A DNA stretch of 64,000 nt, taken from contig JAFRSW010000020.1 in NCBI GenBank assembly GCA_017427385.1, positions 29,422 to 93,421 on the forward strand. Direction: 5' to 3'. This stretch comes from Bacteroidales bacterium (GTDB lineage Bacteria > Bacteroidota > Bacteroidia > Bacteroidales > UBA932). Each line of letters starts with the position of its first letter. Position 1 is the stretch's first letter. A program made the translations under genes and the position numbers. A model generated the notes under the pieces. That model was given only the letters and a program-made list of their open reading frames with translations, had not been told where the DNA came from and ran no database searches. Of this stretch, positions 12,165 to 27,817 are shown one piece after another.

Positions 12165-13385
12165 ATGTTATACTTCCTCCTCTCCCTCGCTTTATTATTG
12201 ACCACAAGCTGCACCGGCAGCGAACCCATGGACAAAGTAGCAGAACGTGTGTTCGAAAGGGCTCAGGTCCAGCTCACGGCATTGTACAACTCGACTCCCG
12301 AAGACAAAATGCCTGTCACATTCGAGAACGGCAAGAATAAGTTCGGAAAATTCAACGGATGGACCAGCGGATTCTTCCCCGGAAGTCTCTGGTACATCTA
12401 CGAATACACCAAGGATCCCGCAATCAGGGAAATGGCTGAAAAACAGACAGAAAAGCTGGACGGAATAATCGAGCTCAAGACCCATCACGACATAGGATTC
12501 CAGGTGAACAGCAGCTTCGGCAACGGCTATCGTCTCACCGGCAACGAGGCCTACAAAGACATGGTCATAGCGGGCGCGGACAAACTCTGCACACGCTTCA
12601 ATCCCACCGTCGGTTGCACCAGGAGCTGGGAGCCCAGCAAAAAATGGCAGTACCCGGTAATCATCGACAACATGATGAACCTGGAAATCCTTGCAAACGC
12701 TTATCGTATCACTGGCGACAAGAAGTACATGGAAATCGCAACATCCCATGCCAACACCACCCTCAAGAACCATTTCCGCGAGGACGGCAGCTGCTTCCAC
12801 GTGCTTTCCTACGATGAAGCCACGGGCGAGGTAATCAAAAAGCAGACACACCAGGGCTTCTGCGATGCCTCCGCATGGTCCCGCGGCCAGGCCTGGGCGC
12901 TTTACGGTTTCACGATGATGTACCGGGAAACCAAGGATCCGGCATATCTGGAGCAGGCAAAAAAGGTAGCCGCATTCATCATTCCCATGCTTCCCAAGGA
13001 CGGGGTGCCCGAATGGGATTTCAACGCTCCCGGCACCAAGCACGCCTTCGACATGTCGGCCAAAGGCGCTCCCAAGGCGGAAGACTACCACTGGCGCAAA
13101 GGAGATCCGGTGCTGCGTGATTCATCCGCAGGGGCCATCATGGCTTCAGCTTTCGTGGAACTCAGCGGCTACACCACCGGAAAAGAGAGCGCGAAATACC
13201 GCAAAACCGCAGAGAAGATACTCCGCACACTCGCATCGCCTGAATACATGGCGGAAGAAGGAGAGAACGGGAACTTCCTTCTCAAGCACGGCGTAACCAA
13301 CCTCCACCGCTGGGACGGTGTGGATATTCCTCTTACTTACGGGGATTATTACTTCCTGGAAGCGCTCTTGAAGTTCTGCAAATAG
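12165..13385 (+). CDS. Glycoside hydrolase family 88 (unsaturated glucuronyl hydrolase-like) lipoprotein
   Basis: GH88 enzymes remove the delta-4,5-unsaturated uronic acid left by polysaccharide lyases. The 406-residue protein has a lipobox ending at Cys16 and an alpha6/alpha6 barrel with the two conserved aspartates in context: HHDIGF (Asp109) and VIIDNMMN (Asp168). The [12 protein letters not shown] segment near residue 245 is also typical. The location outside the cytoplasm suggests final processing of glycosaminoglycan- or pectin-type oligomers in the periplasm. No lyase or SusCD pair is adjacent. Its 3' end overlaps the convergent folD by 37 bp. Confidence 0.92.
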
Positions 13386-14212
13386 CAGCGAAGCGTATTC
13401 TTCATCAGCATCGCGATGGTCATGGGGCCCACCCCTCCGGGGACGGGTGTGATCCACGATGCAACATCAGCGCAGGATGCGAAATCGACATCCCCGCACA
13501 ACCGGCCGTCCGGCATGCGGTTGATACCCACGTCTATCACTATCGCCCCGGGCTTCACCATCTCGCCGGTAATCAGCCCGGCACGGCCCACAGCGGCCAC
13601 CAGCACATCTGCCTGACGGCATACGGCACCCAGGTCGGCGGTGCGTGAATGGGCTATGACCACAGTGGCATTTCGGTCCAGCAGGAGCTTTGCCACCGGC
13701 TTGCCTACTATGTTGCTGCGGCCCACCACCACGGCGGTCTTCCCGGTAAGGTCCACCCCCGTGCTGTCCAGCAGGCGCATCACGCCGGCGGGAGTGCAGG
13801 GCACGATGCAGTCCTTGCCGATCCACAGGCCGGCCACGTTGGAAGGATGGAAGCCGTCCACATCCTTCTCGGGAGCGATGGCCACCAGCACCTTCTCTTC
13901 GTCGATATGCTTGGGAAGCGGAAGCTGCACCAGGATGCCGTCCACGGCAGGATCTTCGTTCAGGGAACGGATCTGCGCGAGAAGTTCATCTTCCGAAACG
14001 CTTTCCGGAAGCTCTATCTGACGCGACTCCATGCCGGTGTAGGCGGCAGCCTTGACCTTGTTGCGCACATACACCTGGCTGGCGGGGTTCTCCCCCACTA
14101 TTATCACGCAGAGGCAGGGAACACGCCCTCCGCGGGCAGCGATTCCGGCGACCTCCGCCTTTACTTCGTCTTTTACGGCCTGACTGATGGCCTTTCCGTC
14201 TATAATTCCCAT
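13349..14212 (-). CDS. folD: Bifunctional methylene-THF dehydrogenase / methenyl-THF cyclohydrolase
   Basis: FolD makes 10-formyl-THF, the one-carbon donor used by PurN and PurH, so its place at the end of the purine operon is logical. The 287-residue protein shows the substrate-binding YVRNKVKAA segment (Lys of the catalytic site, about residue 55), the [11 protein letters not shown] motif (about 95), and the NADP-binding [12 protein letters not shown] motif (about 160-172) followed by PGGVGPMT. The start at 14212 is 4 nt after the purD stop. The 3' end runs 37 bp into the convergent GH88 gene. Confidence 0.96.
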
Positions 14213-14216
14213 AGTA

Positions 14217-15512
14217 TCAGATTCCTTCGCTTTGCTCGGAATGACAGTCGAGCATAGAATGACAGTCGAGCGCGCAGTGCGCTATATCATTCCTGTAAAA
14301 CAAATTCTCGCAGGCGATCTTTGCCACCTCGCGGTAAACATTTGCACGTGCATCCGCCACATCGGCACCAGTGCCGACCACCATCAGCACGCGGCCTCCG
14401 TTAGTCACCAGTGAGCCGTCGCGGAAGGCAGTTCCCATGTGGTATACCCTGCCCTTGACATCGTCCAGGCCCGAAATGGCGAAACCCTTTTCGTACTTGC
14501 CAGGATAGCCCTTCGAGGCGAGCACCACGCCCAGAGTCACCGCATCTTTCCAAACAGGAGCCGGGGCCTCGCGGCCGGATGCCACGGCATCAAAGATATC
14601 AAAAATATCGCTTTCCAGCAAAGGCAGCACCACCTCCGTCTCGGGATCACCGAAACGGGCGTTGAATTCTATCACCTTGATGCCCTGAGGAGTCTTCATC
14701 AGGCCGCCGTAGAGCACACCGCTCAGCGGGCAGCCTTCCGCCACCATCCCGGCCGCGGCCTTGCACATTATCTCCCGGAAGGCGAACTCCCAGTCATCGG
14801 CAGTAATGAAAGGCAGCCCGGTATAGGCACCCATCCCTCCGGTATTAGGGCCCTTGTCGCCGTCGAATGCGCGCTTGTGGTCCTGCGAGAGGGGCATGGG
14901 ATACACGTTGGTGCCCTCCACGAAGCAGAGGAAAGAGAATTCGGGGCCTGTGAGATAATCCTCTATCACCACCCTACCCTTGCCGAAGGCCTCGTCCAGC
15001 AGCATGTCGGACAGGGCAGCGCGGGCTTCCTCCATGTCCTGGGCTATCACCACACCCTTACCTGCGGCCAGGCCGTCGTATTTGATGACCGCCGGGAACG
15101 GCCTGCCGGACACATACTCCAGTGCCTTGCCGAAATCCTCGAAACTGCGGTATGCGGCGGTGGGGATGCCGTACTTCGCCATCAGTTCCTTGGCGAATTC
15201 CTTGGAGGATTCAATGCGCGTGGCTGATGCCGTATGGCCGAAAATCTTCAGGCCCGCGGCGCGGAAAGCATCCACAATCCCTACTGCCAGAGCAGCCTCA
15301 GGGCCGACCACGGTGAGGTCCACCTCGTGCTCCAGCGCGAAGGCCTTAAGTCCCTCTACATCAGTGTCTTTCAGAGGCACGTTCTCCGCCAGCAGGCCTG
15401 TGCCGGCATTGCCGGGAGCGCAGTAGATCTTGCCCACCTGCGGACTGCGGTTCAGCGCATCCACGATAGCATGTTCGCGCCCGCCGCCGCCGACCACCAG
15501 CACGGTCTTCAT
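14217..15512 (-). CDS. purD: Phosphoribosylamine-glycine ligase with a repeat-derived C-terminal tail
   Basis: PurD (GAR synthetase) ligates glycine to phosphoribosylamine, step 2 of purine synthesis. The 431-residue protein begins [15 protein letters not shown] (start at 15512; an upstream extension is not conserved) and contains an ATP-grasp domain with GLAAGKGV and the late FNARFGDPE motif. The last residues, [15 protein letters not shown], are not part of the PurD fold. They are encoded by two 15-bp direct repeats and a sequence resembling a widespread dispersed repeat, so the gene's 3' end has been replaced or extended by repeat DNA. It lies 81 nt downstream of purH. Confidence 0.95.
14220..14271. 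repeat. Dispersed-repeat-like sequence with two 15-bp direct repeats in the purD 3' end
   Basis: A 15-bp unit starting GAATGACAG and ending TCGAGC occurs at 14239-14253 and 14257-14271 (18-bp period). It is preceded by GATTCCTTCGCTTTGCTCG (14220-14238). The combination resembles a repeat common in Bacteroidota genomes that, translated in this frame, gives the recurring CHSE-type peptide. Confidence 0.65.
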
Positions 15513-15593
15513 CAGATAGTTCTCCAGATTGATTTCCTTGCCTCGCACGGCAGTTTTCTGGGTAGGAAGAGGATATACAAGGCCCATATTCGA

Positions 15594-17123
15594 CTAATGT
15601 TTAAAATGTCTTACTCCGGTGAACAGCATGCAGATGCCCAGTTCGTCAGCCTTCTTCACGGCATCCTCGTCGCGGATGCTGCCGCCGGGCTGGACTATCG
15701 CCGTCACGCCATATTCAGCTGCCAGGGCGACGGTGTCGTCGAAAGGAAGGAAACCGTCCGAAGCAAGGATGAGGCCGGAGGTGAAACCGGCAGCCTTTGC
15801 TTCTTCCAAGGCGATATGGGCGGAACCCACCCGGTTCGTCTGCCCTGCCCCTATGCCTATGGTGTGGCCATCGCGAACGACAGCTATAGCGTTGGATTTC
15901 ACGTGCTTGACTATCTTCCACCCGAATTCCAGGTCCTTCATGATGGAAGCAGAAGGCTTAACTTTGGTAACGCACATCGCGGGGGTAATCTCCTCAATCT
16001 GGGTATCCAACTGCTGTACCAGCAGGCCGCCGTTCACGCCAACGTACTGGGGCACGGATGCACCAGTGCGGGTCATGTCCACCTGCAGCACGCGGAGGTT
16101 CTTCTTCGACGAGAGGATCTCCAGCGCCTCGGGCGTGTAGGAAGGAGCGATAACTATCTCGAGGAAGATGGGTTTCATCCCGAGCGCCACCTCTGCAGTG
16201 AGCTCGCGGTTCACGCCCACGATTCCTCCGTAGATGCTCACCTTGTCGGCCTCGTACGCCGCCTGCCAGGCCTCTTCAATGGTGGCTCCCACCGCCGCGC
16301 CGCAAGGATTCATGTGCTTGAGCGCGAGGCAGAAGGGCTCTTCGAAGTCCCGCAGCACGTTCAGGGCCGCGTTCGCATCCTGTATGTTGTTGTACGACAG
16401 CTCCTTACCCTGAATCTGCTTGGCATGCGCCAGCGAGAAGGGCACGCTCTCCGCGCTGGCATAGAAGGTGGCTTCCTGATGAGGATTCTCGCCATAGCGC
16501 AGGCCCTGCTTGTAATCGAATTCCAGGAACAGCTTCTCCGGCAGCCCGGCCTTCTCCCGCATGTAGCGCGAGATACACATGTCGTATTCAGCGGTGTGCG
16601 TATATGCCTTCGCCGAGAGCTTCAGGCGGGTTTCGGGAGATGTTTTCCCGTTCGCGCGGAGCTCCTCCAGCACGGTGCCGTAATCTGCAGGATCGCAGAT
16701 GATGGTAACGTCCTTCCAGTTCTTGGCGGCGCTGCGCACCATCGAAGGCCCGCCTATGTCTATGTTCTCGATGGCTTCCTCCAGCGTCACGCCTTCCCTG
16801 GCGATGGTCTGGCGGAAAGGATAGAGGTTGACGCACACCAGGTCGATGGTGTCTATCCCCTGCTCAGCCAGGGTTTCCATGTGTGCGGGGATGTCGCGGC
16901 GCGCGAGGATACCCCCATGCACCTTCGGATGCAGGGTCTTCACGCGTCCGTCCAGAATCTCCGGGAATCCCGTGACCTCGCTAATTCCTATCGTGTGCAC
17001 GCCCTTGCTCTCAAGCAGCTTCTGCGTGCCTCCGGTTGCGATTATTTCCCATCCGAGCTCAACCAGGCCCTGCACGAACTCCACCAGGCCGGTCTTGTCG
17101 CTCACGCTTACCAATGCTCTCAT
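15594..17123 (-). CDS. purH: Bifunctional AICAR transformylase / IMP cyclohydrolase
   Basis: PurH performs the last two steps to IMP. The 509-residue product has the N-terminal MGS-like cyclohydrolase domain (starting [20 protein letters not shown], with ATGGTQKLL) and the C-terminal AICARFT domain with the catalytic KHMNPCG segment (about residues 265-271). The length is normal for the bacterial enzyme. Its start overlaps the purN stop by 4 bp (ATGA). It depends on 10-formyl-THF, which the folD gene two positions downstream can supply. Confidence 0.97.
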   Translation of the reverse strand: MRALVSVSDKTGLVEFVQGLVELGWEIIATGGTQKLLESKGVHTIGISEVTGFPEILDGRVKTLHPKVHGGILARRDIPAHMETLAEQGIDTIDLVCVNLYPFRQTIAREGVTLEEAIENIDIGGPSMVRSAAKNWKDVTIICDPADYGTVLEELRANGKTSPETRLKLSAKAYTHTAEYDMCISRYMREKAGLPEKLFLEFDYKQGLRYGENPHQEATFYASAESVPFSLAHAKQIQGKELSYNNIQDANAALNVLRDFEEPFCLALKHMNPCGAAVGATIEEAWQAAYEADKVSIYGGIVGVNRELTAEVALGMKPIFLEIVIAPSYTPEALEILSSKKNLRVLQVDMTRTGASVPQYVGVNGGLLVQQLDTQIEEITPAMCVTKVKPSASIMKDLEFGWKIVKHVKSNAIAVVRDGHTIGIGAGQTNRVGSAHIALEEAKAAGFTSGLILASDGFLPFDDTVALAAEYGVTAIVQPGGSIRDEDAVKKADELGICMLFTGVRHFKH

Positions 17124-17680
17124 TTTATCAACTTTGCTATTGTTTCTACATATAACTTATGCTCGATCTCATGCCCTATGCGGTGCGCTTCTTCCGGGTC
17201 GCTGCCTTCATATTCATAAGCCTTCTGGGCGATGATGCGGCCTCCGTCCAACTCACCGTTCACGTAGTGGATGGTAACACCCAGCACCTTCACCCCGAAT
17301 GCAAGCGCATCCTCCACCGCATGAGCGCCCTTGAAGGCCGGCAGCAGCGAAGGATGGATGTTGATGATGCGCCCCTCGTATGCCTTGAGGAGCACGTCTC
17401 CGATTATGCGCATATACCCCGCCAGGCACACCAGTTCCACTTTTCTGGCATCCAGGAGGCCCGCGATCTCAGTCTCGAAATCCGCCTTGCACGCATAGCT
17501 CTTCGGATTGAATACGAAGGTCTCGATGCCCCTCCGGGCCGCCTTCTCCACCACCGCCGCCCCCGGCTTGTCGCAGACCATCAGCGCGACCCGCGCATCC
17601 AGACGCCCGTCCGAGCACGCATCCGCTATGGCCTCGAAGTTCGAGCCGGTGCCGCTTGCAAATACCGCTAGATTATGCAT
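17120..17680 (-). CDS. purN: Phosphoribosylglycinamide formyltransferase
   Basis: PurN transfers a formyl group from 10-formyl-THF to GAR. The 186-residue protein shows the phosphate-binding GTGSNF motif near the N terminus (residues 10-15), the catalytic [12 protein letters not shown] segment (about 105-116) and the late GELDGG motif with the conserved Asp. The start overlaps the purM 3' end by 13 bp and the stop overlaps purH by 4 bp, indicating translational coupling. Confidence 0.95.
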
Positions 17681-18693
17681 ACGCCTTCCTTATCAGTTAC
17701 TTTTCCTATTACGCTCGCCTTTTCGCCTGCGGCTTCGAGGATCGCGATGGCCTTATCGGCCTCTGAGGCATCCAGAACCGCGACCATGCCAATACCCATA
17801 TTGAAGATATTGAACATCTCGCGATGCGGCACTCCACCCCACTTCTCCAACATCCTGAACACCGGCAGAATCTCCCAACTCCCCTCCTGAATCTCCAATC
17901 CCTGCCCCGGCCGCAGCACGCGAGGGATATTCTCGTCGAAGCCGCCTCCGGTGATGTGCGCGACTCCGTGCACATCGCAGTTGCGTATCACCTCGAGCAT
18001 CTGCTTCACATATATCCTGGTGGGCGTGAGGAGCACCTCGCCGAGCCTGCGCCCGCCAAATTCGGGAATCTCATCGAAATAGGAAAGCCCAGCATCGGCC
18101 ACTATCTTGCGCACCAGACTGAAGCCATTGGAATGCACGCCGCTGGAGGCGATGCCCACCAGAACGTCCCCAACCTTCACCTTGGAACCGTCTATAAGTT
18201 TGCTCTTCTCCACCACGCCGGTGGTATAGCCCGCTATGTCGTATTCTCCGTCGGAATACATGCCCGGCATCTCGGCGGTCTCGCCGCCTACGAGGGCGCA
18301 TCCCGCCTGGCGGCATCCTTCCGCCACGCCGGCCACTATGGCCTCGACCTTGGCGGGAACGTTGTGCCCCAGAGCCACATAATCCAGGAAAATCAGGGGT
18401 TCGGCCCCCTGCGCGAGCACATCGTTCACGCACATCGCCACGGCGTCGATGCCTATGGTATCGTGCTTGTCTATCGCGAATGCAATCTTGAGCTTGGTGC
18501 CCACACCGTCGGTTCCGCTCACCAGCACGGGTTCCTTAACTCCGAGGGCGGAGAGGTCGAACATGCCTCCGAAGGAGCCTATGTTGCCCATGGAACCGGT
18601 GCGCGCGGTGGACGCCACGTGCTGCTTGATTCTTCTAACTACTTCATATCCGGCTTCGAGGTTAACGCCGGCGTTTTCGTATGTCTTTGCCAT
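17668..18693 (-). CDS. purM: Phosphoribosylformylglycinamidine cyclo-ligase (AIR synthetase)
   Basis: PurM closes the imidazole ring of FGAM to give AIR. The 341-residue protein has the AIRS N-terminal motif [14 protein letters not shown] (about 59-72), the AEMPGMY segment and the C-terminal [15 protein letters not shown] motif. The length is typical. It begins 1 nt after the purF stop codon region and ends inside purN by 13 bp. Confidence 0.97.
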
Positions 18694-18694
18694 A

Positions 18695-20050
18695 TTAGTC
18701 TGTTATTACATCATCGTAGAGTAAAGTCGGATATTCGCCCGTGAAGCAGGCCTGGCAGGGATCCGCGCAGCCGAAAGCGGACTCGCGCGTGGATTCCGGG
18801 CTCAGGTAGCCCAGGGAATCAGCCTCGATGGCCTTGCAGGCCTCCTCCAGGTTGCGCTTCGAGCAGAGCAGCTCTTCTGCAGTGGAGGTGTCCACGCCGT
18901 AATGGCAGGGGAAGCGCATCATGGGGCTGGCGATGCGCACGTGCACCTCCTTGGCCCCGGCGGAACGCAGGAGCTTAACTATCTTGAGGCAGGTAGTGCC
19001 GCGCACGATGGAATCGTCCACCAGAATCACGCGCTTGCCTTCCACTATGCTGCGGACGGGGGAAAGTTTCATCTTCACGCCCAGTTCGCGCATGCTCTGC
19101 ACTGGCTGGATGAAGGTGCGGCCCACGTATTTATGCTTCACCAGACCCATCTCGAAGGGGATTCCGGCCTCCTCGGCATAACCGAAGGCAGCGCTCAGTC
19201 CGGATTCCGGCACTCCCACCACTATGTCGGCTTCCACCGGATTCTCCCGGCACAGGCGTCTGCCCGCTTCCTTGCGGTACGCGTGCACGTTACAGCCGTC
19301 GATGTCGCTGTCCGGACGGGCGAAGTAGATGTATTCCATCGCGCACATGCGATGGCGGGAAAAACGGCTCCAGACGGTACTGTGCATGCCGTTCTTGTCG
19401 AAAGACACAATCTCTCCGGGGTTCACGTCCCGGAGGAACTCCGCACCCATGATCTCGAATGCGCAGGACTCGCTGCCCACCACGTAGCCGTCCCCGAGCT
19501 TGCCTATGCAGAGGGGTTTGATGCCGTATTTGTCCCTGGCGGCATAAACGCGGCTGCGGGTCATGATGATGAAGGAGAATCCTCCCTCCATCATGTTCAG
19601 GGCCTTGACTATGCGGTCGATGCGATCCTCGTTGTAGTTCTTCTTGATGAGGTGTGCGAGAAGTTCGCTGTCGGTGTCGGTCTGGAAGATGGTGCCGTGT
19701 TTCTCGAGATAATCCGCTATCTGCTTGGCATTCACCAGATTACCCTCTCCGGCAACCACGAAGTTGCCGCTCTTGTGACGGAAAAACAGAGGTTCCACGT
19801 TCTCGGGGCCGCCCTTGGATGCATTGGCATACTTCACGCTGCCCACGCCCATGGAGCCCTTCAGCTCACCTACCTCGCCATTGGTGAATATCTCGCTCAG
19901 CAGTCCCTGCCCGCGGTAACGGTAGGATTTGCCGTTTTCGTCGAAGGTGGCTATGCCGCCGCCTTCCTGCCCGCGGTGCTGCAGGTTATGAAGCCCGTAA
20001 TAAATATAGGTGGATGCGTCCTTTACGCCGTAAACTGCAAGTAATCCCAT
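18695..20050 (-). CDS. purF: Amidophosphoribosyltransferase-like PurF lacking the glutaminase nucleophile
   Basis: PurF makes phosphoribosylamine from PRPP and glutamine-derived ammonia, step 1 of purine synthesis. This 451-residue protein is of the Fe-S (Bacillus) type. The PRPP loop [13 protein letters not shown] (341-353) and four candidate cluster cysteines (Cys236, 382, 432, 435) are present. In the Ntn glutaminase domain the initiator Met aligns with the catalytic Cys1. The usual VRYATAG is VKYANAS (about 72-78), and HNGNLVN is GEGNLVN (101-107). No alternative upstream start supplies a Cys, since a stop lies two codons upstream. It may use free ammonia, or be a paralogue of a true PurF elsewhere. 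Confidence 0.88.
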
Positions 20051-20053
20051 TTT

Positions 20054-20776
20054 CTAATGAATATCAAGTTTTTCAAGTCTGTCCAAAACGGTTTGATAGG
20101 ATGCGACAACGTCGCTGAGATCCAGGCGGAAACGGTCCTTGCCGAGCCTCTCCCCCGTTGCCTCGTCCCAGAGGCGGCAGGTGTCGGGGCTGATCTCGTC
20201 CGAAAGGATGAGTTCGCCGTTGTCCGAGGCATGGCCGAACTCGAGTTTCATGTCCACCAGTTCGATTCCAATGCTGTGGAAGAGTGCCTCCAGCAGGCTT
20301 CCGGCCTTACGTGCCACGGCCATCATGATATCGATCTCATCGTAGGTGGCAAGCCCGAGGGCCACTGCGTGGTGCTTGTTGATGATAGGATCTTCCAGGT
20401 CGTCGTTGTTGTACACCAGATCCACGATGGTATTGCCGGGGCAGAAGCCATCCTCCACTCCCAGGCGCGTGGCCAGGTCGCCGGCGATGCGCTTGCGCCA
20501 GAAGACCTCTATGGGGATGATTTCGATCTTGCGGCAGAGCTGGTCGCGCTCCCCTACCTGCTCCAGGAAGTGGGTGCGGACACCGTTCTTGTTCAGGTAT
20601 CCCAGCAGGATGGCCGAAATACGGTTGTTCAGCACCCCTTTCCCGTCGAAGCGGGCGCGCTTGATGCTGTTGTAGGCAAGGGTCACATCCTTATATCGGA
20701 AGATGACCTTATCGGGATCTTCGGTCGCGAAAACCTGTTTTTCGTTACCGTCGAAAAGAAGTTGTTTTTTATCCAT
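20054..20776 (-). CDS. purC: SAICAR synthetase (first-type, downstream of purL)
   Basis: PurC ligates aspartate to CAIR. The 240-residue protein has the family motifs KGVLNNRIS, the IRTHFLE-type segment (VRTHFLEQ), DMKLEFG and DEISPDTCRLWD (about residues 190-201), followed by KDRFRLD. The loop usually reading EVVVRN is EVFWRKR, a modest change. The start at 20776 (MDKKQLLFDG) overlaps the purL 3' end by 8 bp. A longer start ten codons earlier would lie deeper in purL. It is one of two PurC proteins in this operon. Confidence 0.92.
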   Translation of the reverse strand: MDKKQLLFDGNEKQVFATEDPDKVIFRYKDVTLAYNSIKRARFDGKGVLNNRISAILLGYLNKNGVRTHFLEQVGERDQLCRKIEIIPIEVFWRKRIAGDLATRLGVEDGFCPGNTIVDLVYNNDDLEDPIINKHHAVALGLATYDEIDIMMAVARKAGSLLEALFHSIGIELVDMKLEFGHASDNGELILSDEISPDTCRLWDEATGERLGKDRFRLDLSDVVASYQTVLDRLEKLDIH

Positions 20777-23700
20777 TGTTTCTGAAATAGTTGACTGCGT
20801 TTTCAAATATGGGCTGGCGGCACTCCCCTGCTATGTTCTTGAACAGATTCCCCTCGTAGCGCTCGCTGTGCCCCATCTTGCCGAGTATGTGCCCGTCCGG
20901 GCTGAGGATGCCCTCGATGCCGTAGGACGATCCGTTGGGATTGTCGATGTAACGGAAGGCCACCTGGCCGTTCTCGAACAGCTCCCTGGCCAGTTTCTCG
21001 TTCACCACGAACTTGCCCTCGCCATGGCTGAAAGCTATCGAATGCCTGTCTCCCAGCCTAAAGGAAGACAGCCATGGTGAATTCACGGATGCAACTTCGG
21101 TGGTGGCGATGAGGGATATGTGGCGGTTGATGTCGTTGCGGAACAGTGTCGGGGAATCCGGGGTGACGCAGCCGGTCTTGCCATATGGCAACAGGCCGCT
21201 CTTCACCAGGGCCTGGAAGCCGTTGCATATGCCAAGGATCAGCCCTCCGCGGGCCTGCAGGGCCGCTATCGCCGCGGATATCTTGGCATTATTGATGACG
21301 TCGGCAATGAATTTTCCGCTGCCGTCGGGCTCATCGCCGGACGAGAATCCGCCGCAGAATGCCAGGATGTGACATTCGTCGATCCTGCGTGCCAGACTGT
21401 CGATGGAGTCGAGGACGTCCTGGGGATGGAGGTTGCGGAAGATGAAGGGCCGGACTTCGGCGCCTGCCTTCCTGAATGCCTTGGCTGTGTCGTAGTCGCA
21501 GTTCGTGCCCGGGAACACCGGTAGACAGACAATGACTGCGTCCTTGTCTGTCATTGTCTGTAGGGGGCTCTGCCCCCTAGAATACCCCCGCGGCTCCCGG
21601 ACTTCGGACATCGCTCGAGCGATGTCCCGTCCTCCGCCGTGCGTGCTGAGGCACGCATTACCCTGCCCTTTGCCCGGCGCGGATGGCCTCGTGGGAGCGT
21701 CCTGGTCAGTCGCCTCCACGCGCGGAGGATATAATTTCCAATAGCGAGATTCGTACGCCTTTTCCAGGGCATCGAGAGCCATATTGACTCCGTTGATGCA
21801 GATGCCCATCTCGGCAACGGTGCCAAGAAGTTCGGCAGCCGGGAAATCCAGCTCGCCGGCAGCCTCGACCAAAACGGAACCGTATCCAAGCGAGAAAAGA
21901 TCCCTCTCGGAAACGTTCACCTTCACTCCCAGGGCATTGCCCATCGCCATCTTCACCAGACCTTCAGCCACGCCGCCGTAGGAAAGCGACCACGCGGAAA
22001 CTATCTTCCCTTCGAGCACCTGGCTGCGGATGAAACTCCAGTTGGCCTTGAGGGCGTCGGTATCAGGCATCCAATTCTTGAGCGGAGTATGCCGGATCAG
22101 GTATATCCTGTTGCCAGGGGCCTTGAATTCGGGAGATATGACCTCGCCCGCATCCACGGTAGTGATGCCGAAGGCCACGAGGGTGGGCGGCACGTGTATG
22201 TGCTCGAAGGTGCCGGACATGGAGTCCTTGCCTCCGATGGACGGAAGGCCGAGGGCGTCCTGCATCTTCAGGGCGCCGAGCAGGGCGCTGAAAGGCTTGC
22301 CCCAAGTGTGGGAATCCTTGGTCATGCGCTCGAAGTATTCCTGATACGAGAAGCGCATTCGGCTCCAGTCGGCACCCGAGCAGGCCACCTTTGTGCAGGC
22401 CTCCACCACTGCGTAAGCTGCTGAATGATAGGGGCTCCAGAGGGCGATGTCGGGGTTGTAGCCGAAGGCCATCACGCTTGCGGTATCGGTGTAGCCGACC
22501 ACAGGCAGCTTCTGCACCGAAACCTGGGTCTCCGTCATCTGGCGCTTTCCGCCGAAAGGCATGAGCACCGTGGAACGTCCGATGGTGGAGTCGAACATCT
22601 CGATCAAGCCCTTCTGGGATGCCACGTTGGGGGATGACATGGTGGCGAGCATCTTTTCCTCTAGGCCTATGCCTTTGGGCTCGCGCACGAAGGGATCCTT
22701 CTCCTCAACAGCGGCGATGGCGGCCTTGGCATAATGCTTCGCGCCGGCACTGTCGATGAACTCGCGGGAAAGGTCGCAGACCAGCTCCCCGCCGTTCCAC
22801 ATGCGCATCCTGCCACGGTCGGTGACATCCGCCACATGAGTTACTTCTATGTTGTCGGCCGAGCAGAGGGCGCAGAAGGCGTCTACATCCTTCGCCTCGA
22901 CCACGACGGCCATCCTTTCCTGGGATTCGCTGATGGCAAGTTCGGTAGCGTTCAGGCCGGCGTACTTGGCAGGCACACGGTCCAGCCAGATGTCCAGGCC
23001 GCCGGCGAGTTCGCCTATGGCCACGCTCACGCCGCCAGCTCCGAAGTCGTTGCTCTTCTTGATGAGGCGCGTGACCTCCGGACGGCGGAAAAGCCTCTGC
23101 AGCTGGCGCTCTTCGGGGGCATTACCCTTCTGCACCTCGCTGCCGCAGGTCTCCAGCGAACTTTCGGTGTGTTCCTTGGAAGAGCCTGTGGCTCCGCCGA
23201 TTCCGTCCCTGCCGGTGCGGCCGCCGAGCAGCAGCACCACATCGCCGGGAGCCGGGCTCTCGCGGCGCACGTCGGAAGCTTTGACGGCTCCCACTACGGC
23301 ACCTATCTCCATGCGTTTGGCAGTGTAGCCATCGGCGTAGATTTCCCGCACGTGGGTGGTTGCAAGGCCTATCTGGTTACCGTAGCTGGAGTATCCTCCC
23401 GCAGCCTTGCGGCTGATCATGCGCTGGGGAAGTTTGCCGGGAATCGTATCCGCCACGCTGGCGGTGATGTCCCCCGCTCCGGTCACGCGCATGGCCTGAT
23501 AGACGTAGGCACGGCCGGAAAGAGGGTCGCGTATTGCGCCTCCGAGGCAGGTGGCGGCTCCGCCGAAAGGTTCGATTTCGGTGGGATGGTTATGGGTTTC
23601 GTTCTTGAACTGCAGCAGCCACTTCTCGGGCTTGCCGTCCACGGTGGCGTTGATGAATATGCTGCAGGCGTTGTTCTCTTCGCTCTGCTCCTGGTCGTCC

Positions 23701-24548
23701 AGCTTGCCGTTGGCCTTCAGCCAGCGGGCGCCGATGGTTGCGAGTTCCATAAGGCAGAAAGGCTTCTCTACCCTGCCAAGTTTCTCGCGCATGGCGCCGA
23801 ACCTGCCCAGGCTCTCCTCCAGTTCGGGTTTCAGGAAGGAATCGTCGATGGTGATTTCTTCGATTTCGGAGGTGAAGGTGGTGTGGCGGCAGTGGTCGCT
23901 CCAGTAGGTATCCAGGATGCGAAGCTCGGTCTCGAACGGATCGCGGCCCTCGGCCTTGAAATAACGCACGACCTCGCGGAGGTCGTCGGTGTTCATGGCC
24001 AGCCCGTGGTCCTTGCAGAAGGCGGCGAATTCGCTTTCGGGCATCTGCGTGAAGCCGGTGAGGTCCTCGAGCGGCTTCACATCCGCCTGCTCGTTCTCCT
24101 TCAGCACGGAGAGGTCCTTACGGCGGCATTCCACAGGGTTGATGTAGTAGTGGGCTATCCTGTCCAGGTCGGCCTGGGGAAGGCTGTCGTCGAATATCAG
24201 CAGGCGCGAGCTTTTGATGCGGATGTCTGCCTTGGGGTCGATCAGGTGCACGCAGTCCACGGCGGACGATGCTCTCTGGTCGAACTGGCCGGGGATGTAT
24301 TCCACAGCCAGGTATTTCTTTCCGCAGAGGTCGATGGAGTCCGTCACAGTGTCGGTCACCGTCTCGCCGAATACGCTGTAGCGGCACTTCTCCACCAGGG
24401 AGTCGGAAAAGCCGAACAGGTCGTAGACGTTCAGCAGCCGGAGCGACTTGATATCTATGGACAGATTCTCGGCAAGTTCAGCGCGCAGGCTCTCCGCCTC
24501 AACGCTGAACGCTTTCTTTTTCTCTACGAATAAACGCTTGTTGCTCAT
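20769..24548 (-). CDS. purL: FGAM synthase (large, glutaminase-fused PurL) with a repeat-derived insertion
   Basis: PurL converts FGAR to FGAM with ATP and glutamine. The 1259-residue product is the large single-chain type: N-terminal PurS-like region, two AIRS-type halves (GGRTGRDGIGGATGSS; later IGGKDSMSG) and a C-terminal class I glutaminase with the nucleophile GICNGFQ and FSHGEGKF. Between the second synthetase half and the glutaminase (about residues 940-1000) there is an in-frame, low-complexity stretch encoded by palindromic repeat DNA (21551-21720), with odd peptide content unlike either domain. The start at 24548 is preferred over a frame extension of seven codons. Confidence 0.96.
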   Translation of the reverse strand: MSNKRLFVEKKKAFSVEAESLRAELAENLSIDIKSLRLLNVYDLFGFSDSLVEKCRYSVFGETVTDTVTDSIDLCGKKYLAVEYIPGQFDQRASSAVDCVHLIDPKADIRIKSSRLLIFDDSLPQADLDRIAHYYINPVECRRKDLSVLKENEQADVKPLEDLTGFTQMPESEFAAFCKDHGLAMNTDDLREVVRYFKAEGRDPFETELRILDTYWSDHCRHTTFTSEIEEITIDDSFLKPELEESLGRFGAMREKLGRVEKPFCLMELATIGARWLKANGKLDDQEQSEENNACSIFINATVDGKPEKWLLQFKNETHNHPTEIEPFGGAATCLGGAIRDPLSGRAYVYQAMRVTGAGDITASVADTIPGKLPQRMISRKAAGGYSSYGNQIGLATTHVREIYADGYTAKRMEIGAVVGAVKASDVRRESPAPGDVVLLLGGRTGRDGIGGATGSSKEHTESSLETCGSEVQKGNAPEERQLQRLFRRPEVTRLIKKSNDFGAGGVSVAIGELAGGLDIWLDRVPAKYAGLNATELAISESQERMAVVVEAKDVDAFCALCSADNIEVTHVADVTDRGRMRMWNGGELVCDLSREFIDSAGAKHYAKAAIAAVEEKDPFVREPKGIGLEEKMLATMSSPNVASQKGLIEMFDSTIGRSTVLMPFGGKRQMTETQVSVQKLPVVGYTDTASVMAFGYNPDIALWSPYHSAAYAVVEACTKVACSGADWSRMRFSYQEYFERMTKDSHTWGKPFSALLGALKMQDALGLPSIGGKDSMSGTFEHIHVPPTLVAFGITTVDAGEVISPEFKAPGNRIYLIRHTPLKNWMPDTDALKANWSFIRSQVLEGKIVSAWSLSYGGVAEGLVKMAMGNALGVKVNVSERDLFSLGYGSVLVEAAGELDFPAAELLGTVAEMGICINGVNMALDALEKAYESRYWKLYPPRVEATDQDAPTRPSAPGKGQGNACLSTHGGGRDIARAMSEVREPRGYSRGQSPLQTMTDKDAVIVCLPVFPGTNCDYDTAKAFRKAGAEVRPFIFRNLHPQDVLDSIDSLARRIDECHILAFCGGFSSGDEPDGSGKFIADVINNAKISAAIAALQARGGLILGICNGFQALVKSGLLPYGKTGCVTPDSPTLFRNDINRHISLIATTEVASVNSPWLSSFRLGDRHSIAFSHGEGKFVVNEKLARELFENGQVAFRYIDNPNGSSYGIEGILSPDGHILGKMGHSERYEGNLFKNIAGECRQPIFENAVNYFRNNG
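21561..21720 (-). repeat. Palindromic dispersed repeat inserted in frame within purL
   Basis: Read on the plus strand it starts with a perfect TAGGGGGC/GCCCCCTA inverted repeat around TCT (21561-21579), then AATACCCCCGC, then a second palindrome GGACATCGCT/AGCGATGTCC (about 21606-21627) and a GTGCGTGC/GCACGC pair (about 21639-21656). The first part matches the core beside tRNA-His at 10985. It adds roughly 50 codons to purL without breaking the frame. Confidence 0.7.
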
Positions 24549-24561
24549 ATCATTAAATTGT

Positions 24562-24592
24562 ATGCCCACCGGCGCAGTTGCGGGGTGGGCAT
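24562..24592 (-). promoter_or_regulatory. Intercistronic hairpin between purE and purL
   Basis: The 50-nt spacer between the purE stop and the purL start holds a perfect 9-bp inverted repeat, ATGCCCACC with GGTGGGCAT (24562-24570 and 24584-24592), around a 13-nt loop. It is not followed by a T run on the coding strand, so it is more likely an mRNA stability or processing element than a terminator. Confidence 0.5.
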
Positions 24593-24598
24593 TCAGGG

Positions 24599-25069
24599 TT
24601 AGATTACAGTATTCAGGACCTTGTCGCTCTGCTGTTTGCGGAATTCCTGCAGTTTTGCAGAGAGGCCCTCGTCCCCCAGGGCCAGTATGCTAACTGCGTA
24701 CAGTGCGGCATTTTTGGCTCCGTCTATGGCCATCGTGGCCACCGGTATGCCGGAGGGCATCTGCACTATGGACAGGAGGGAGTCCAGCCCATTCAGCGCC
24801 TTGCTCTTTACGGGCACTCCGATGACAGGGATAGTCGTTAGGGCGGCAATCACTCCGGGCAGATGCGCCGCTCCGCCGGCTCCGGCAATGATAATGTCGA
24901 AACCATTATCCTTCGCCGCCTTCACATAATCGGCCAGGGGGCCGGGATTCCGGTGTGCGCTTAAGACCTTCTTTTCGTAAGGGATGCCGAATTCTTCCAG
25001 GGTGGTGCACGCCGGGGCCATCACGTCCCAGTCGCTCGCGCTGCCCATGATTACTGCTACTTTGCTCAT
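24599..25069 (-). CDS. purE: N5-carboxyaminoimidazole ribonucleotide mutase (class I PurE)
   Basis: PurE forms CAIR. The 156-residue protein has the GSASDWDV motif (residues 9-16), the catalytic SAHRNP segment (about 41-46, Thr of the usual SAHRTP replaced by Asn) and [10 protein letters not shown] (about 67-76). These features are those of class I, which normally works with PurK; no purK is in the operon, so PurK must be elsewhere or be bypassed. The stop overlaps nothing downstream and the start overlaps purC2 by 4 bp. Confidence 0.95.
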
Positions 25070-25746
25070 GCGAAGAAAAGTTTTGATAAGGTCATTGGAT
25101 CTATATACTCCCCATCCTTGTAAACACGCATGTTGCCGGATGCGATCTCATCTATCAGCATAACCTTGCCATCCGAATCATATCCGAACTCGAACTTGAT
25201 GTCGTATAGCACCAGGCCCTTGGCCTTCAGGTCGTCCGCCACCACCTTGGTTATGCGCTGTGTCATCTCTTTGATGGCATCGTACTGCTCGTCCGTCATG
25301 ATGCCGAGGACGATCAGGCCGTCCTTGGTCACGAGAGGATCACCCTTGGCGTCGTTCTTGAAAGTCATCTCCACGTAGGCGGGAAGGTCGGTGCCGGGTT
25401 CTATATACTCTCCGTAACGCTTGATGAAACTGCCTACAGCCTTGTGACGGCAGATTACCTCCAGTCCGTGTCCGAACACTTTAGCAGGTAAAACCTCCAT
25501 CGTGGTATCTTTCAGATTTGCACTCACATAGTGGGTACGGATACCTGCGGCATTGAGTTTCTCAAAGAAATAAATGCTCATTCTGAGATTCACGTCTCCC
25601 ACGCCTTCGATGGTGAGACCGATGGAGTTTTCGCCGGGATCGAACACACCGTCCTTACCGGTGCAATCATCTTTGAACTTGAGAAGATAATGACCGTTGT
25701 CGAGAGCAAAAACGTTTTTCGTCTTGCCTGTGTAAACTAGCTTCAT
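25066..25746 (-). CDS. purC: SAICAR synthetase-like protein (divergent, operon leader)
   Basis: This 226-residue protein belongs to the SAICAR synthetase superfamily, but to a branch different from the PurC downstream of purL. It starts [12 protein letters not shown], has [18 protein letters not shown] (about 18-35), a GIRTHYVS segment and [26 protein letters not shown] instead of the canonical DEISPDTCR. Whether it makes SAICAR or acts on a related substrate is not evident. The start at 25746 follows the -7 box by about 39 nt. It is the first gene of the purine operon and ends with a 4-bp overlap with purE. Confidence 0.85.
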
Positions 25747-25785
25747 ATAATAATAGATGTATAGAATCCTACCAACAACGGGATA

Positions 25786-25793
25786 CAAATTTA
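25786..25793 (-). promoter_or_regulatory. -7 box (TAAATTTG) of the purine operon
   Basis: The minus strand reads TAAATTTG, a consensus match about 39 nt before the first purine gene. It is the only clear box upstream of the ten-gene cluster and lies 12 bp from the opposing promoter of the WG-repeat gene. No recognisable purine riboswitch is seen in the short leader. Confidence 0.6.
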
Positions 25794-25805
25794 CAGTTTT
25801 ATTCG

Positions 25806-25813
25806 TATTTTTG
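25806..25813 (+). promoter_or_regulatory. -7 box (TATTTTTG) of the WG-repeat gene
   Basis: TATTTTTG matches TAnnTTTG and precedes the ATG at 25835 by 21 nt, giving a short leader. Confidence 0.55.
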
Positions 25814-25834
25814 AAAGCATTATTCCTACGACTT

Positions 25835-27817
25835 ATGAACAAAAACACCAAGAGTTTTCAACAATTCCTCCTTCTTCTTTGCAGTTTTGCACTTGCTTTC
25901 TCTTTGAGCGCGTCCGCCCAGGACCTCAAACCAGCCAAAGACAAAGCCACGAAAAAGTATGGTTATCAGGGCAAAGGCACTAAGACATGGGTGATTCCGC
26001 CCAGTTTCGACGATGCCAAGAAGTTCGTCGACGGTACGGCAGAAGTGGAGATTGACGGTCACTGGGGATTGATCGACCAGGCCGGAAACATGATATTCCC
26101 CGCAATCTACGACAATATAGGCAAGTTCGACAAGAACGGCTACTGCGAACTCATGCGCAAAGTGAACGGCACCAAACTGCGCGGCATCGCCGACCGGGAC
26201 GGACGCATAGTCATCCCCGTGGAGGCGCGTGGCGTTGACGTAGACCGCAGCGGCGAGTTCATGTATGCAGAATACGACACTGAAGTGCCAGGATTCAAAG
26301 CAGAAGCAATGTGGGGTATTTACGACAATCAAGGAAGGGAACTGCTGAGCCCGCAACTGTCCTACACTCCCACGTTCAGGGACGGCACGTTCATAGGTAA
26401 ATCCGAAGTCACCGGCCTCTATGGCATCATCGGCTACGACGGAACGGTGCTGCAGCCCTTCCAGTATCTGAACATAATCCGGTCTTCCGGCTCATTCAAA
26501 GCTCTTGGCACAGATCTTACTCACTATATTTGGAGTCCTGACCTCAGGGACGGCCAGTCGATGCGCGAGCCCAGAGCCATCAAACCCTACGATCCCCAGG
26601 GCGACCCCGTGCGCGCAGCGGCTTGGCAGAAAGGCCCCATCGGCAGAAGGCTCTATGCCAATATGGTGCGTGTGGTCGAATTCCATACGGGATTCCTTGG
26701 CAGCACTAAAGCGGCCTGCAACATGCTTCACATCGACTGGGGGCGCGGACGCTTCATACGCCTCGAGCCCTGCCTGATATCCGGAAGCATACCCGGTGCC
26801 ATGCGCTACGGCGGAGGCAACCGCTATTACACCCTCAAGGCCCTGCTCTACGAAGCGGACGGCACATTCGTCCAGGAAGTCTGCAGCCGCGGATGGCTTG
26901 AGGGCGACTTCAGCGAAGGCGCCATCTACAATGCCGACGGCAAACAGCGCTGGGCCATCATGGCGAACCCCAATGCCCTTGGTCTCCCCGCCTACACCAT
27001 GGATATCCACGACTATCGCGCTTTCGGCCACGAGGATGTGTTCGAAGGCCTCGGATTCAGCATTTCGGAGCTCTCAAAACTGCAAAGGCTCTACGATTTC
27101 ACTACCCGCTGCAAAGACATCTACGAGACGGAGAACGTGGGCGTCAATTCATATATTCCCCGCATGCCGAGTTCCGTACATGCAAGGGCAGAGCTCGCTG
27201 CCTCTAAATCCCACATCTTCCACTATGCATTCCATATGGGAGACGTCGTGAACTGCGCAGTCCGGCATAAAGACGGCAAGGATTTCGTAGAACTTTTCCC
27301 GGACCTTACCTGCATTTATAAAGACAGGATCGACGATCCTTCCTACACCATGTCCGAAAGGGAGGAAGTGATTTACTGGGGCCCCAACAACGCCCGTACC
27401 GTCAGGCTGAGCCTGGAGGCTATGACGCACAATCCGGAGAAATATACCCTGGACGATTCGCACGGAACCGGTTACTCATACATGCTTGTGCTTAACATGT
27501 TCGAAGAAGACGGAACATGGCTCCGCACGCTTGCAGCAGCCCCCTGGGCCGATTATTTCCAGGATGGAATCCTGGTCTTCGAGCCTCTGGGAATCGCTAT
27601 GATAACTCCTTTCCGCGGGCACAAAGGCGGTGCCGGCAAGCCTCAGGGCTCCGGTATGGGACAGCCCAGCCGCACCGGCGGGAATACCGTTGAATCGCAT
27701 GGAGGATCTCGTGAAAGCGCAGGCGTGGCCGACAATTCCAAACCTGCTCCCGCTCCAGGCGAACTCCAGCCTCTCCCCCATACGCTTTCGGCTCTGGAAG
27801 CCGCTGTCCGCATTTAA
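25835..27817 (+). CDS. Secreted WG-repeat protein of unknown function
   Basis: The 660-residue product starts at 25835 ([11 protein letters not shown]) with a signal peptide ending near SASAQ. The N-terminal 200 residues contain WG-type repeats: [54 protein letters not shown] and [18 protein letters not shown]. These form beta-propeller-like or repeat surfaces of unknown role. The middle and C-terminal parts are not recognised; the end is rich in Gly, Ser and Pro (about 610-650). It stands alone between divergent and convergent neighbours and ends at a strong bidirectional terminator shared with dnaK. Confidence 0.75.

Follow-up and report, generated by a model that had tools for sequence, protein, structure and literature searches.

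PurF is generally held to be driven by glutamine in vivo, with ammonia use as a side activity. The purine operon described here contains a purF gene without a codon for the catalytic cysteine (Cys1), which raises the question of what such a protein does and where its nitrogen comes from. The window, meaning the whole stretch of 64,000 nucleotides that was analysed, lies on contig C19 of a 1.93-Mb, 22-contig MAG that is 77.75% complete, and its genus, of bacteria living in the gut, is taken to be Candidatus Cryptobacteroides.

The gene is an open reading frame of 451 codons plus stop. Its product matches TIGR01134 over model positions 4–432 of 432 with 455 bits (curated cut-off 350), and B. subtilis PurF (1ao0) with 518.9 bits (E 9.7e-155). 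Annotation by the model score names this apparently glutaminase-dead protein "amidophosphoribosyltransferase". The start context reads CAT TAG AAA ATG GGA TTA. Because TAG is in frame two codons 5' of the ATG, a longer, Cys-bearing reading is excluded, and the N-terminal catalytic Cys1 that marks EC 2.4.2.14 is absent. The initial annotation had placed the initiator Met at the Cys1 position, and this context agrees with it. It had also read Lys for the Arg of VRYATAG and GE for the HN of HNGN. The alignment with 1ao0 that it had suggested confirms these substitutions: VRYATAG is VKYANAS in the window protein (Lys73), and HNGN is GEGN (Gly101-Glu102 replacing His101-Asn102). We take Arg73 to be the glutamine-binding Arg of PurF and residue 102 to be the oxyanion-hole Asn; Arg26, Tyr74 and Asp127 follow the same numbering. 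Gly103, Asp127, the PRPP loop and four Fe-S-type cysteines are retained in the same alignment, and the loop and the cysteines were found at the residues where they had been described as intact. Judged by its sequence, the window protein, which lacks Cys1 and Arg73 and has an acidic residue at 102, cannot work as a glutamine amidotransferase in the known way. There is strong support for the view that glutamine hydrolysis has been lost and the synthase half preserved.

Table 1. Features of the Cys-less purF and its operon (positions in the window)
Feature	Position	Strand	Evidence
purF without Cys1, 451 aa, proposed glutaminase-dead PRPP aminotransferase	18695..20050	-	TIGR01134 match, 1ao0 alignment, start context
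ATG start occupying the Cys1 position, TAG AAA before ATG	20048..20050	-	start context; residue 1 comparison
Lys73 replacing Arg73 (putative glutamine-binding Arg)	19832..19834	-	alignment
Gly101-Glu102 replacing His-Asn; residue 102 = putative oxyanion-hole Asn	19745..19750	-	alignment
PRPP loop, 13 residues (341-353)	18992..19030	-	motif DDSIVRGTT
Span with four Fe-S-type cysteines	18746..19345	-	present in 56/56 clade proteins
Fe-S-type Cys236	19343-19345	-	
Fe-S-type Cys382	18905-18907	-	
Fe-S-type Cys432	18755-18757	-	
Fe-S-type Cys435	18746-18748	-	
purC-like, directly upstream of purF	20054..20806	-	TIGR00081 170 bits, below cut-off 189.9
purM, directly downstream of purF	17668..18693	-	TIGR00878 452.9 bits
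purL, C-terminal glutaminase domain with intact Cys and His-Glu motifs	20769..24569	-	TIGR01857 1662.5 bits; motif check
purN, purH, purD, folD-like (remainder of operon)	13349..17680	-	profile matches
purE and second purC-like (operon head)	24599..25851	-	profile matches

The operon has the order purC-like, purE, purL, purC-like, purF, purM, purN, purH, purD, folD-like. Its two purC-like genes (20054-20806 and 25066-25851) are a separate curiosity, scoring 170 and 121.8 bits against TIGR00081 with a cut-off of 189.9. The purC-like gene and purM flank the Cys-less purF in all 55 loci with flanks, and in relatives without the Cys-less clade a Cys1 PurF occupies the same operon slot (L015, L016, L018). 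PurL keeps its glutaminase motifs in 120/120 frames examined, some of them from repeated loci or from Cys1 genomes, and the purine pathway therefore still uses glutamine.

The window protein is one of many. Among 61 searched genomes from the genus, 30 loci were read. Of these, 12, the window's own included, start with Met-Gly or Met-Ser and no Cys1; the other 18 carry Cys1 behind the usual propeptide. TIGR01134 was searched in 150 genus genomes (the window's own and 149 at ≥90% completeness), and 44 additional short PurF matches starting after model position 1 were all without Cys1 (44/44). Full-length Cys-less proteins number 56, in 55 genomes of the genus (G126 has two), and were aligned with 37 Cys1-bearing proteins of the genus in 93 rows, five fragments (L048, L049, L050, L056, L170) being excluded. 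Twenty of the 150 genomes gave no TIGR01134 match at E 0.001; they may be purine auxotrophs in a genus whose other members have full pur operons. At family level, 38 of 199 genomes had a match, and 27 new loci were read, which added 6 Cys-less proteins from two sister genera, where purM, purN and purL adjoin the gene; 10 matches without loci, all from model position 2, stand outside the count. In an order-level sample of 295 genomes with 12 matches at E 1e-100, the match in the window's own genome was the sole one of the 12 without Cys1. In a wider scan of contigs covering at least 80 loci, 3 of the matches listed belong to the clade, one has Ser at Cys1 and the others have Cys. The Ser-bearing protein, from a Tissierellia MAG (L252, JAAYHU010000051.1), reads SGVVGI with no nearby ATG seen.

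The Cys-less proteins are monophyletic in a 21-row tree and in a 27-row tree with the sister genera (SH-aLRT 100 each), and the PRTase half alone again recovers them as a clade (SH-aLRT 99). Their neighbours in the tree are Cys1 proteins of the same genus (G012, G030). The idea that Cys1 was lost several times over inside the clade is rejected, as one clade is found also with the PRTase half only. These results indicate that the Cys-less clade arose among Bacteroidales Cys1 PurF.

If such a protein is the only PurF of its organism, it was argued initially, phosphoribosylamine would have to be made from free ammonia or from ammonia supplied by a partner. The own MAG gave a single TIGR01134 match, at a completeness of 77.75% that leaves room for a second PurF in the missing part. 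The count was made in the 50 clade-bearing genomes at ≥90% completeness (G184 was included by 84% identity over residues 147–447, its N terminus lying beyond the contig). The premise of a single PurF holds, as far as detected, in 17 of them, and does not hold in the other 33, which have a second PurF: a long Cys1 PurF in 10 and a short copy in 24, with both in G129. Cys1 was read in 10/10 long and 23/24 short copies, or in 32/33 genomes, the copy of G022 being cut by the contig end so that its Cys1 is not readable. No second PurF was detected by the TIGR01134 search in G023, G045, G047, G079, G083, G094, G097, G104, G118, G126, G138, G153, G169, G174, G177, G179 and G182. Every match in these 17 is either the Cys-less protein, which G126 has twice, or GlmS, which five of them have. 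In the other 12 the Cys-less protein is the only match at E 0.001, and a further class II domain of the PurF/GlmS kind was thus not detected at this threshold. Incompleteness alone is expected to hide 2.7 of 50 second copies, and 17 or more absences occurred in 0 of 200,000 simulations, in which copies were lost independently at a rate set by completeness. The nearest high-completeness relatives of the window protein, G045 (91% identity, 96% complete) and G083 (90%, 97%), are both among the 17; G183 (86% identity) is not. Presence and absence of the second copy switch at least 11 times on the clade tree (49 rows). The Cys-less PurF is thus apparently sufficient alone in many species, to judge from their gene content.

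These counts bear on the possibility that the Cys-less PurF serves as a synthase subunit and gets its ammonia from a separate glutaminase, which would be either a Cys1 PurF sharing its oligomer or an unrelated class I glutaminase acting in trans. A second PurF in 33/50 genomes, with Cys1 read in 32, would suit such an arrangement, as would the continued conservation of Tyr74, Arg26 and the GATase fold region, and PurF' co-occurs with PurF in crenarchaea according to PMC3261824. But no second PurF was detected in the 17 genomes, in 12 of which the Cys-less protein is the lone TIGR01134 match at E 0.001; the second copies lie off the pur operon in the 15 loci with flanks; and no additional gene adjoins purF. 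This arrangement is considered unlikely. Between the free ammonia and the partner proposed at first, a Cys1-PurF partner is unnecessary in the 17 genomes without another PurF. In the remaining 33 of 50 the Cys-less protein is one of a pair of isozymes.

The second copies have neighbours of their own. In 10/10 genomes with a long PurF, amtB is no more than 2.6 kb from it, and in 8/10 gltB is no more than 8.3 kb from it. For the short copy, gltB is at most 25 kb away in 7 of 12 genomes that have both, and amtB in 4 of 9; the neighbours read include asnB and fused carAB. GltB was found in 1 (G126), AmtB in 0 and GlmS in 5 of the 17 genomes without a second PurF; the numbers are 21, 18 and 22 for the 33 genomes with one, and 11, 8 and 7 for 26 Cys1-only comparison genomes, which were hand-picked from 48 and in all of which Cys1 was read (26/26). 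Because gltB, amtB and the second PurF are linked, this association is partly a single block; independent pairs on the tree gave about 3 the same way and 0 the opposite way of 11, so that the gltB/amtB association is not significant. A second PurF kept as a glutamine isozyme for ammonia scarcity would fit this gene content, which does not amount to proof. The ammonia-dependent AsnA is found in 42/51 clade genomes, the window's own included.

Two further observations concern nitrogen enzymes. GlmS, which makes glucosamine-6-phosphate, was not found in 43 of the 77 genus genomes searched (76 at ≥90% completeness). The locus L162 encodes a GMP synthase (12827-13807, minus strand; 327 aa) that matches only positions 196–512 of the 512 in the model and has no N-terminal glutaminase part; it may be split or ammonia-dependent.

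The substitutions in the clade are concentrated in the glutamine site. Residue 1 is Met in 56/56 Cys-less proteins and Cys in 37/37 Cys1-bearing relatives. Residue 2 of the clade is Gly in 49, Ser in 5 and Ala in 2, and an N-terminal Met is removed before Gly, Ser or Ala; the Met is therefore probably cleaved, and the place of the nucleophile would be left empty. Residue 73, which is Arg in 37/37 relatives, is Lys in 45, Gln in 6, Met in 2 and Cys, Arg and Leu in one each, so that Arg73 is retained in 1/56 clade proteins, as it is in 1/6 sister-genus proteins (L336). His71 is gone from all 56. Residue 102 is Glu in 32 and Asp in 24, never Asn, compared with Asn in 37/37 relatives, and it is Asp in 6/6 sister-genus proteins. 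Asp127 is retained in 51/56, and Arg26 and Tyr74 in 56/56. The 37 Cys1 proteins share 42 invariant GATase positions, of which 6 are lost in 56/56 clade proteins and 8 in most. The PRTase half has 56 such invariant positions, and none is lost in the Cys-less clade; DDSIVRGTT of the PRPP loop is invariant (56/56), and the PRPP-binding PRTase site and the Fe-S cysteines are present in all 56. The glutamine site, as read from these sequences, is selectively dismantled.

The median dN/dS of the clade is 0.20 for GATase and 0.07 for PRTase (839 pairs with unsaturated dS), and that of the Cys1 proteins is 0.35 and 0.225 (88 pairs, which are more divergent). The Cys-less purF is under purifying selection, and the reading as a pseudogene is rejected by dN/dS. 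The same values bear on the idea that the protein no longer makes phosphoribosylamine and has become a PRPP-binding regulator or a catalyst of another reaction. The glutamine site is indeed gone, and two PurF proteins per species would free one of them for a new role. However, the clade keeps each of the 56 PRTase positions that do not vary in relatives and has a PRTase dN/dS of 0.07, the gene occupies the purF slot of the operon, and the 17 genomes would be left PurF-less despite purD, purM and purH in the operon, which makes a changed role quite improbable.

An error of sequencing, assembly or start site in the window is hardly credible and is refuted for the clade by its start contexts, for although the window is MAG sequence and wrong start sites hid Cys1 in archaeal PurF annotations (PMC3261824), the ATG start is identical in 56/56 proteins with an in-frame stop at most 30 codons upstream in 55/56, the three upstream open tails hold Cys but none as Cys-Gly at the right place, and further glutamine-site residues are altered as well. 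The initial argument that these joint changes reflect functional loss rather than a sequencing error is upheld by the absence of Cys1 from 56/56 clade proteins.

The Cys-less PurF is most probably an ammonia-dependent PRPP aminotransferase, with a glutamine isozyme as backup in some species. The glutaminase half would have been switched off by selection with the synthase half still working, and phosphoribosylamine would be made from PRPP and NH3 of the cell's surroundings. NH3 would enter through the emptied glutamine site, we infer, and pass on to the PRPP site by the usual channel. Where a second PurF with Cys1 is present, often with amtB or gltB close by, it probably serves under ammonia scarcity; in species that apparently lack it, the first purine step would depend on ammonia. 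Two precedents are consistent with this route: when Ala or Ser replaces Cys1 in E. coli PurF, the enzyme can no longer use glutamine and keeps ammonia use (PMC3261824), and in NH3-dependent synthesis of phosphoribosylamine external NH3 enters from the glutamine site (PMC12017579). Counting against an ammonia-dependent enzyme, the glutaminase motifs of PurL are intact in the same operon, 33/50 genomes keep a second PurF, and one of the 17 without it, G126, has GltB.

The always-acidic residue 102 suggests an ammonium-attracting mouth. It is possible, although on balance doubtful, that acidic 102, the lack of residue 1 and the smaller side chains at 71 and 101 together form a port that attracts and deprotonates NH4+ and feeds the channel, that this form took over from a glutamine PurF in an ammonia-rich niche, and that the kept isozyme joined a nitrogen-scarcity set beside amtB/gltB. 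A general switch from glutamine to ammonia was rejected as the whole cause because the PurL glutaminase motifs are intact and because GlmS is about as rare in Cys1-only genomes (7/26) as in Cys-less-only genomes (5/17).

Compared with known systems, the clade resembles B. subtilis-type PurF (TIGR01134; 1ao0) in length, both domains, the PRPP loop, the Fe-S cysteines and operon place, but it lacks Cys1 and, in nearly all members, Arg73, and has an acidic residue for the oxyanion Asn. A second PurF-like family of about 475 aa with an MGGFFGT-type start (loci L061-L067, L293-L322) is found in 47/150 genus genomes and in 0/51 with the Cys-less clade. It also has no Cys1 and no glutamine site and keeps the PRPP loop and Fe-S cysteines (7 proteins aligned), but its identity is about 31–35%, the Arg73 loop is deleted, residue 102 is Val and Asp127 is unaligned. 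The window protein has neither an MGGFFGT-like start nor a deleted Arg73 loop and is not a member. This family is remote from pur genes in 7/8 loci with wide flanks; in G030 its gene adjoins purE and purL.

AsnA beside AsnB offers a parallel in logic only, one enzyme using ammonia where the other uses glutamine. Those two are unrelated, whereas in the present case the form that uses ammonia descends from the amidotransferase. A published bacterial Cys-less PurF was not found in the titles and abstract starts of the openly licensed PMC literature, where "Cryptobacteroides" with "amidophosphoribosyltransferase" gave no match. What appears new is a bacterial clade that holds the operon slot, with an always-acidic oxyanion position and many species without another PurF detected. 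Such a clade, with its glutamine site dismantled and no second PurF detected in a third of the well-sampled species, would argue strongly at the genomic level that the committed purine step can run on ammonia alone in nature.

The closest description is that of crenarchaeal PurF', a Cys1-less PurF homologue encoded near purine genes (PMC3261824). Ala or Val replaces Cys1 in many PurF' proteins, whereas the clade here has Met and belongs to Bacteroidales. Every genome with PurF' also has a Cys1 PurF according to the same paper, whereas none was detected here in 17/50 good genomes. The likeness is one by description; the trees here, of Bacteroidales PurF, place the clade within the Cys1 proteins of that order. 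Ammonia dependence of PurF' is an untested proposal of that paper, which the bacterial protein makes testable.
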